Positions 39,337 through 41,308 of a stretch of 42,599 bases of DNA are shown here, piece by piece. Below the pieces are notes generated by a model, which was given only the letters and a program-made list of their open reading frames with translations, was not told the DNA's origin and searched no databases. The stretch spans positions 1 through 42,599 of the forward strand of contig CATKYT010000008.1 in assembly GCA_949841245.1 (NCBI GenBank), in the 5' to 3' direction. Made by a program: the position numbers and the translations under genes. This DNA comes from an uncultured Eubacteriales bacterium. Its GTDB lineage: Bacteria > Bacillota > Clostridia > Christensenellales > UBA1242. The first letter of the stretch is position 1; each line of letters begins with the position of its first letter.

Positions 39337-39380
39337 ATTTAAAAAGACCAGTCAATTTGACTGGTTTTTTAAGTTATAAA
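39331..39380. repeat. 50-bp direct repeat, left copy (contains ftsZ terminator)
   Basis: AGATAAATTTAAAAAGACCAGTCAATTTGACTGGTTTTTTAAGTTATAAA; identical to 40508-40557. Confidence 0.95.
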
Positions 39381-39834
39381 TGTTAACACATTTCTTTTTC
39401 ATTTTAATTGCATAGTCATAAGCAATTTTAGTTCCGCTGTGAGTAAAGTCAGGGGTATATTTTTCATTGCAATAAAAAACCATTAAATCGCTATCATTTA
39501 TGATTGCTTTATTTCTTTCTATATATAAGTATTTGCCTGCATTTATTACATTAGCAGGTTTATTTATTTTATCGTAATATTTTTGGCCTATAACTTTATA
39601 CTTTTTTAACATTGGTTTTTCGAAACCACAAAAATAATTAATCATTTCTATATTATAAGTGTTTTGTAAATCAGAAATGATTTGCCAACATAAATCATCA
39701 AATTCACTTTTGCTTCCAAAAATAAAAGTGTCTACTTTTTCATTATTTATTAAATTTTCAAACAAATCTCTAAGTTTTAATTCTAAAAGATTTTTAAATT
39801 CAATTTTTCTGTTACCAATTATGCCACATTTCAT
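39352..39834 (-). CDS. SLOG-family (DUF1273/YspA-like) nucleotide-binding protein
   Basis: CGIIGNRKI...VDTFIFGSKSEFDDLCWQIISDLQ...NDSDLMVFYCNEKY..SGTKIAYDYAIKMKKKCVNIY; start ATG 39834 after GGAG. Confidence 0.75.
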   Translation of the reverse strand: MKCGIIGNRKIEFKNLLELKLRDLFENLINNEKVDTFIFGSKSEFDDLCWQIISDLQNTYNIEMINYFCGFEKPMLKKYKVIGQKYYDKINKPANVINAGKYLYIERNKAIINDSDLMVFYCNEKYTPDFTHSGTKIAYDYAIKMKKKCVNIYNLKNQSN

Positions 39835-39850
39835 ATTTTTCTCCATTTTA

Positions 39851-39968
39851 ACGATACATTCACAACTATTATAATATATTTTTTAAAAGTTGTCAATAAA
39901 TTCACAACTTGTGCATGCATTCACAACATTATTTTTGTTAAATTGATAAAATTTATTGTGAATGTATC
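39851..39968. promoter_or_regulatory. Divergent promoter/operator region between SLOG gene and XRE pair
   Basis: Inverted repeat GATACATTCACAA(39853-39865)/TTGTGAATGTATC(39956-39968); further TTCACAAC at 39901-39908 and 39920-39927; minus-strand TTGACA-17-TATAAT. Confidence 0.7.
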
Positions 39969-39982
39969 ATTAGGAGAATGAA

Positions 39983-40216
39983 ATGAAACTTTATAAAGCG
40001 GTTGGTTTAAGAATATTAGAGTATTGTCGTGAAAGAGATATAACACCAAATAAACTTTGCACAATGTCAGGAGTTATTCAATCAACAGTAAATAGTATAT
40101 TTTCTGGAAGAAGCCAAAATCCAAAAATTGGAACTATTAAAGACCTATGTTCAGGTCTTGGTATAACATTGAGAGAATTTTTTGATAGTGAATTGTTTAA
40201 CAATTTGGATGATTAG
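39983..40216 (+). CDS. XRE-like HTH regulator (tandem copy 1)
   Basis: MKLYKAVGLRILEYCRERDITPNKLCTMSGVIQSTVNSIFSGRSQNPKIGTIKDLCSGLGITLREFFDSELFNNLDD. Confidence 0.9.
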   Translation: MKLYKAVGLRILEYCRERDITPNKLCTMSGVIQSTVNSIFSGRSQNPKIGTIKDLCSGLGITLREFFDSELFNNLDD

Positions 40217-40253: not shown

Positions 40254-40487
40254 ATGAAACTTTATAAAGCGGTTGGATTGAGAATATTAGAGTATTGCCG
40301 TGAAAGAGATATAACACCGAATAAACTTTGCACTATGTCGGGAGTTATTCAATCAACGGTAAATAGCATTTTTTCAGGAAGAAGTCAAAATCCAAAAATT
40401 GGAACAATTAAGGACCTATGTTCAGGTCTTGGAATAACATTAGAAGAATTTTTTGATAGTGAGTTATTTGATAATTTAGACGATTAA
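40254..40487 (+). CDS. XRE-like HTH regulator (tandem copy 2)
   Basis: Near-identical to 39983-40216; same GGAGAATGAA ATG context. Confidence 0.9.
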   Translation: MKLYKAVGLRILEYCRERDITPNKLCTMSGVIQSTVNSIFSGRSQNPKIGTIKDLCSGLGITLEEFFDSELFDNLDD

Positions 40488-40507: not shown

Positions 40508-40557
40508 AGATAAATTTAAAAAGACCAGTCAATTTGACTGGTTTTTTAAGTTATAAA
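40508..40557. repeat. 50-bp direct repeat, right copy
   Basis: Identical to 39331-39380. Confidence 0.95.
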
Positions 40558-40559
40558 CA

Positions 40560-40683
40560 TTTCTGGTGAAAAATACATTTTTGGCTTGTTTTCGTGTAAA
40601 CACGAAAAGCATCGCTTTGACATTTGTTTTCACCATTCGCGACCAAACGAAATCGCACTAGTGTTGGCGATTTGTCGCGACTT
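40560..40683. repeat. Dispersed structured element, copy 3
   Basis: GGTGAAAA(40565-40572)/TTTTCACC(40627-40634); TTTTCGTG(40589-40596)/CACGAAAA(40601-40608); TCGCGAC..AAATCGC(40637-40656)/GCGATTTGTCGCGA(40667-40680). Confidence 0.85.
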
Positions 40684-40747
40684 CAATGCTAAGAACGGGA
40701 TTCTAAGACATAAATTGTAATAATTGTGCATGTGTTCAAATTATAAT

Positions 40748-40951
40748 TTAATCTATAATTCCCAGCAAATAGTCAGCGGAAACTTGAAAAAATTTGCAAA
40801 GAAAAATAATTTGTTCTATGTTTGGTTGTCTTTGTTTTAATTCTAATTTACTTATATGTGTTTGACTTACCATCAATTCATCGGCAAGTTGTTTTTGAGA
40901 TAATCCTTTTTCTGTTCTTAATTCTTTTAATCTTTCAGAAAATTTGTTCAT
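40748..40951 (-). CDS. XRE-family HTH regulator
   Basis: MNKFSERLKELRTEKGLSQKQLADELMVSQTHISKLELKQRQPN; start at 40951 with AAGGAG upstream. Confidence 0.88.
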   Translation of the reverse strand: MNKFSERLKELRTEKGLSQKQLADELMVSQTHISKLELKQRQPNIEQIIFLCKFFQVSADYLLGIID

Positions 40952-40996
40952 AATAAACTCCTTAAATTTATTATAAGACAAAATGGCTTAAAATAC

Positions 40997-41047
40997 TTGA
41001 CATACCCCAAAATGGGGTATATAATATTTTTAATCCAAAATGGATTA
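40997..41047 (+). promoter_or_regulatory. Consensus SigA promoter with palindromic spacer and second palindrome downstream
   Basis: TTGACA(40997-41002) TACCCCAAAATGGGGTA(41003-41019) TATAAT(41020-41025); TAATCCAAAATGGATTA(41031-41047). Confidence 0.85.
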
Positions 41048-41059
41048 AAGGAGTTTGTT

Positions 41060-41308
41060 ATGTTGAAATATGAAATTAAAGTTAAAGAAGTTATTTTAAA
41101 CGAATGGGTAGCAAGGGAATTAAAAGGCAACGAATGGAGAAGCCTAGGTAAAAGTAATGAAAAAAGAAATAATCTTTATAAAAGTTTAAATAGAAAACAA
41201 AAAGAAATGCTCTTGGAATTGGAAGAATGTTACGACAAGGATATGGTGCAAAACGAACAAAACTTAGTGGAATTTGTTTTAGAGTTTATTAAAGCAGTCT
41301 ATAAGTGA
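41060..41308 (+). CDS. Small hypothetical protein (82 aa) divergent from XRE gene
   Basis: ORF from ATG 41060 with AAAGGAG RBS; MLKYEIKVKEVILNEWVARELKGNEWRSLGKSNEKRNNLYK. Confidence 0.75.
   Translation: MLKYEIKVKEVILNEWVARELKGNEWRSLGKSNEKRNNLYKSLNRKQKEMLLELEECYDKDMVQNEQNLVEFVLEFIKAVYK

Follow-up and report, generated by a model that had tools for sequence, protein, structure and literature searches.

A predicted XRE repressor switch with an operator in the promoter spacer, next to a DUF6809-related gene of an uncultured Eubacteriales bacterium

Two small divergent genes of an uncultured Eubacteriales bacterium (UBA1242) very probably form a self-contained, lambda-like repression switch. Judging from sequence comparison, a dedicated, autoregulating and sensor-less XRE protein of 67 amino acids (XRE67) would keep the very strong promoter of an 82-amino-acid protein (P82) off. 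The switch is ordinary in kind: it is an XRE repressor switch assembled from familiar parts, with logic of the lambda/phi11 type. The locus itself appears to be real, conserved, and functional. The term window is used below for the whole stretch of 42,599 nucleotides that was analyzed.

Promoter and operators between the XRE67 and P82 genes

The region comprises the following features:
40748-40951, minus strand: XRE67 gene, 67 aa, DNA-binding domain only (HTH_3, E 3.2e-17, above cut-off)
40970-40975, minus strand: presumed XRE67 -10 element TATAAT, without a good -35 (read from the sequence)
40974-40990: predicted operator O3, TAAGACAAAATGGCTTA, 6 of 7 arm pairs (comparison with relatives)
40997-41002, plus strand: P82 promoter -35 element TTGACA (12/12 in the consensus scan)
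41003-41019: predicted operator O1, TACCCCAAAATGGGGTA, a perfect 7-3-7 palindrome that exactly fills the 17-bp spacer
41020-41025, plus strand: P82 promoter -10 element TATAAT (12/12 in the consensus scan)
41031-41047: predicted operator O2, TAATCCAAAATGGATTA, a perfect 7-3-7 palindrome at the expected start site, 5' of the ribosome-binding site
41060-41308, plus strand: P82 gene, 82 aa, related to DUF6809 via intermediates (profiles and predicted structure)

The original prediction described a perfect-consensus promoter whose 17-bp spacer is itself a palindrome, and this holds base for base (40997-41025). The second 7-3-7 palindrome, which had been placed between the -10 element and the ribosome-binding site with the same core, was likewise found at 41031-41047, and the centers of O1 and O2 are 28 bp apart. 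The two palindromes can be extended to arms of 8 and 9 bases; they have a common core, but their outer arms are unlike, which is a point against the proposed switch. The AAAATGG motif noted near 40980 is present, but it is not a lone half-site: it belongs, as the core, to a third predicted operator of 17 bp, O3, which overlaps the presumed XRE67 -10 element and shares two bases with its TATAAT. The core CAAAATGG occurs at 40979, 41008, and 41036, with a pitch of 29 and then 28 bp.

Perfect 12/12 promoters occur three times in the whole window. In this AT-rich sequence, about 8.7 palindromes of the 7-3-7 type are expected and 12 were found, while the expectation for the 109-bp intergenic stretch is only 0.03. 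Since two palindromes with a common 9-bp core are joined by a third site at equal pitch, the arrangement of O1, O2, and O3 is not due to chance. Elsewhere in the organism's own 1.0-Mb genome, operator-like sites occur at approximately chance frequency (125 vs. 104 control matches, at up to three mismatches). Consequently, XRE67 looks dedicated to its own locus. At up to two mismatches the genome holds 13 sites, whose sole cluster is the set of three in the window. A genome-wide regulon for CCAAAATGG was rejected because matches elsewhere are close to the control count. An Rfam search of the P82/XRE67 region returned nothing credible.

The nearest solved relative of XRE67 is the Xre protein of ICEBs1 (7t8i, E 1.3e-8), and further solved relatives include C.BclI, DdrO, and C.AhdI. 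XRE regulators are typically autoregulatory dimers that bind palindromes (PMC12565409). The predicted palindromic operators overlap both the target promoter (O1 and O2) and the -10 element of the XRE67 gene (O3), at positions that appear to be conserved. Because O3 sits on the presumed promoter of the repressor itself, the circuit is probably autoregulatory, a feature that the original prediction did not include. In a defence-system search, XRE67 gave only generic XRE matches and P82 gave none.

Operator layout in relatives and the P82 family

If the palindromes are true XRE operators, diverged XRE proteins should be accompanied by sites that keep their positions and change their letters jointly. 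One paralogue of P82 is encoded in its own genome (L013, 57%), and the sister genome G035 contributes two homologues (L010 and L014, approximately 55%). The family was detected by profile search in 14 of 112 genomes of the genus and, with a broader profile, in 31 of 396 genomes of the order; relatives with named records come from metagenome assemblies of uncultured Eubacteriales or Clostridia. At the paralogue and at homologues elsewhere, a divergent pair of XRE and small-protein genes is again associated with a near-consensus promoter and a different spacer operator, with copies 28-30 bp to either side.

In the window, the best matches to O1 lie at -29 and +28 from the spacer, as they do in L010 and L013. 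The spacer site of L010 is TAGGACTATTTGTCCTG, flanked by TAGGACAATAAGTCCTA at +28 and TATAACAAATTGTCCTA at -29, while L013 has sites of the type TAAGnC..GTCTTA at -29/0/+28. Sites of the form TTATC..GATAA lie at -29/0/+29 in L018, and those of L017 at -28/0/+30. L039 (TTGACA-TATGGCAAAATGCCATA-TATAAT, copy at -30) shows the same design in other letters; L060 combines TATCTATGTCATAGATT with a copy at +28, and the best O1-position match of L012 is found at +29. The position equivalent to O3 is occupied in L010, L013, L017, L018, and L039. Averaged over 16 loci, the window not included, spacer self-similarity peaks at -30, -29, and +29 (8.4-8.6 matches; mean 7.06, sd 0.55), and these offsets are the window's own geometry. 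With site positions fixed and letters changed in diverged copies, the comparison lends support to the proposal of a compact switch between divergent genes, in which the neighboring XRE protein uses operators to control a very strong promoter.

Compared with 73 control promoters, those of the family have spacers with stronger palindromic symmetry (p = 0.0009). Palindromic spacers also occur in three of the controls, and the design is therefore not unique to the P82 family. The layout is common and not universal, as several XRE-paired loci have no clear spacer operator (L022, L026, L027, L028, L029, and L030; L026-L030 in part). Exact 12/12 promoters precede 11 of 20 XRE-paired family genes vs. 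0 of 30 unpaired ones (p = 2e-7 on scores), a comparison confounded by the greater average evolutionary distance of the unpaired homologues. L014, which has no XRE gene, has kept an L013-type palindrome (TAAGCCAATAGTCTTA) and lost the consensus promoter. Duplication of the XRE gene is recurrent in these modules: L013 has two XRE genes, and in L028 three tandem XRE paralogues (782-1395) adjoin a single P82 homologue.

P82 is predicted with high confidence to consist of three helices (mean pLDDT 91.8). Sequence and fold searches against the PDB and viral models gave no significant match, and no match was obtained to Pfam or to HTH, toxin, or defence families. The relation to DUF6809 (PF20648) comes from the family: 8 of 20 aligned members match the profile (best E 7.5e-9), the P82 of the window itself does not match at the curated cut-off, and its own genome contains no PF20648 match. 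Across DUF6809 loci of the class, a divergent XRE gene is seldom detectable, and the XRE pairing is therefore a property of the P82 clade and not of DUF6809 overall. A literature search found no paper naming DUF6809. In some family genes (L015, L018, L039, and L040), a stop codon lies inside the matched stretch, which may reflect C-terminal truncation or decay.

These data also bear on a toxin-antitoxin-like reading, in which P82 would be harmful and XRE67 would act as an antitoxin mainly by silencing the P82 gene. The confinement of consensus promoters to XRE-paired copies is in line with it, as is the joint absence of XRE gene and consensus promoter at L014. However, the two genes are divergent and not operonic, searches matched P82 to no toxin or defence family, solved structure, or fold, and P82 copies without an XRE gene persist in several genomes. 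Toxicity of P82 finds no direct support in these data, and such a pair is considered a possible but improbable explanation.

Surroundings and mobility of the module

The genes adjoining the module are ftsZ, a SLOG-like gene, XRE77, and spoIIGA, and neither an integrase gene nor a phage gene was seen next to XRE67 and P82. A tblastn search of phages and plasmids with P82 and a scan of viral contigs gave no match. A phage or plasmid origin was rejected on these grounds. The description of the switch as phage-type is accordingly retained as an analogy of logic only; with regard to origin, it is not supported by these searches or by the flanking ftsZ and spoIIGA.

In the sister genome, whose SpoIIGA is 96% identical, the SLOG-like gene and XRE77 are present between ftsZ and spoIIGA, and XRE67 and P82 are absent; a broken XRE-like gene occupies their place. 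At a yqeY-like locus the situation is reversed, with a module in the sister genome and none in the genome of the window. This reciprocal presence and absence suggests that the cassette is gained and lost. In many other members of the genus, the gap between ftsZ and spoIIGA is only about 90-200 bp.

The sensor-less XRE protein and the DUF6809-like three-helix effector may together represent a previously undescribed mobile cassette. Its perfect promoter would fire on arrival in a cell without repressor and then be shut off, giving a pulse of P82 on entry, and the target of P82 would be the host, competing elements, or the repressor itself. This idea is tentative and has perhaps one chance in several of being correct. 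Less probable still is a prophage or ICE remnant, in which only the immunity region of a formerly integrated element would survive. The logic and the three-operator layout resemble the immunity regions of phi11 and lambdoid phages (PMC3991615), the nearest solved XRE protein comes from ICEBs1, and the presence of the module differs between sister genomes. Nevertheless, the adjoining genes are not those of such an element, P82 has no match in viral contigs, phages, or plasmids, and it shows no HTH match.

Other features of the surroundings were observed. A second divergent module lies next door, in which the SLOG-like gene (39352-39846, minus strand) faces an XRE gene starting at 39983 (plus strand) across an intergenic region at 39847-39982. 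The SLOG-like gene has its own perfect promoter, from TTGACA at 39896 to TATAAT ending at 39868 (minus strand), and four ATTCACAA sites lie within 106 bp at this gap, with one other in the window. The 77-aa XRE gene is tandemly duplicated (39983-40216 and 40254-40487, proteins 97% identical), and the pair is also present as a pair in G035. A terminator-like palindrome, ACCAGTCAATTTGACTGGT, brackets the SLOG/XRE77 block at 39347-39365 (after ftsZ) and 40524-40542 (after the XRE77 pair); the two copies are possibly a trace of cassette insertion. Finally, positions 40568-40708 hold a dispersed repeat, about 115-140 bp long, that contains several inverted repeats. It has 10 matches in its own genome, 9 in G035, 9 in G108, and none in G091, one of the G035 copies adjoins the XRE gene of L010, and no credible Rfam match to it was obtained.

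Proposed mechanism and comparison with known systems

In the proposed repression switch, an XRE67 dimer would bind O1, O2, and O3, as the palindromes and the comparison with relatives suggest. On O1, the dimer would span the spacer between the two hexamers and deny RNA polymerase the -35 and -10 elements of the P82 promoter, while on O2 it would cover the P82 start site. Binding to the weaker, asymmetric O3 would limit transcription of the repressor's own gene from its weak promoter. Left free, the P82 promoter would consequently be very strong, and the presence of the repressor would close it. As XRE67 lacks any ligand-binding or protease-sensitive domain, the P82 gene is probably silent in the steady state and released when the repressor level is low. 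Such a shortage could arise by dilution or titration, or when the cassette enters a cell that contains no repressor; an antirepressor, perhaps P82 itself, is a further possible trigger.

XRE proteins can also act as activators; some small members do so, and activators of the MerR type bind promoter spacers. It is conceivable that XRE67 activates the P82 promoter from the spacer, in the manner of a C protein or MerR. However, this promoter already combines perfect consensus hexamers with a spacer of the optimal 17 bp and requires no activator, and a protein bound to O2, at the start site, would obstruct transcription; activation is therefore regarded as quite unlikely. The notion that the palindromes are RNA hairpins (a terminator or an mRNA-protecting stem) and not DNA operators is the least credible. 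In its favor, O1 was flagged in both orientations by a terminator scan, and O2 could give a stem of 6 bp at the 5' end of the mRNA. However, O1 lies inside the spacer and is transcribed from neither divergent promoter, the predicted fold of O2 does not surpass that of shuffled sequences (z -0.81), and RNA stems need no single sequence repeated at fixed pitch as in O1, O2, and O3.

Among known systems, the repression switch closely recalls the immunity regions of phage phi11 and lambdoid phages, where three homologous operators lie between divergent repressor genes (PMC3991615). As in CI-Cro circuits, two divergent genes, one of them encoding an HTH repressor, are separated by three homologous operators, each about 15-17 bp long, which overlap the promoters. 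In contrast, the second gene here is P82 and not a Cro repressor, with no HTH family match; the 67-aa repressor has no C-terminal domain, O1 fills the spacer exactly, and no phage or ICE genes lie alongside. ICEBs1 ImmR/Xre provides the nearest solved DNA-binding relative, an autoregulated XRE dimer on palindromes (PMC12565409), whereas XRE67 consists of the DNA-binding domain alone, and no gene for an ImmA-like protease, an integrase, or conjugation was seen next to it.

The C proteins of restriction-modification systems are small XRE autoregulators that use operator pairs and time expression after entry into a new cell. Two of them, C.BclI and C.AhdI, are among the solved relatives of XRE67; unlike C-protein loci, the present one has no restriction or methylase gene, its genes are divergent, and its target promoter is of perfect consensus with an operator in the spacer.

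The recurring modules constitute a natural series of repressor-operator pairs, in which one fixed promoter geometry with a 28-30 bp pitch is combined with different operator letters and different XRE proteins. Such a series is useful for studying the DNA specificity of XRE proteins and for obtaining orthogonal, tight promoters. It also places a DUF6809-related protein in a regulatory setting and offers a clear starting point for testing the action of this protein once it is released.
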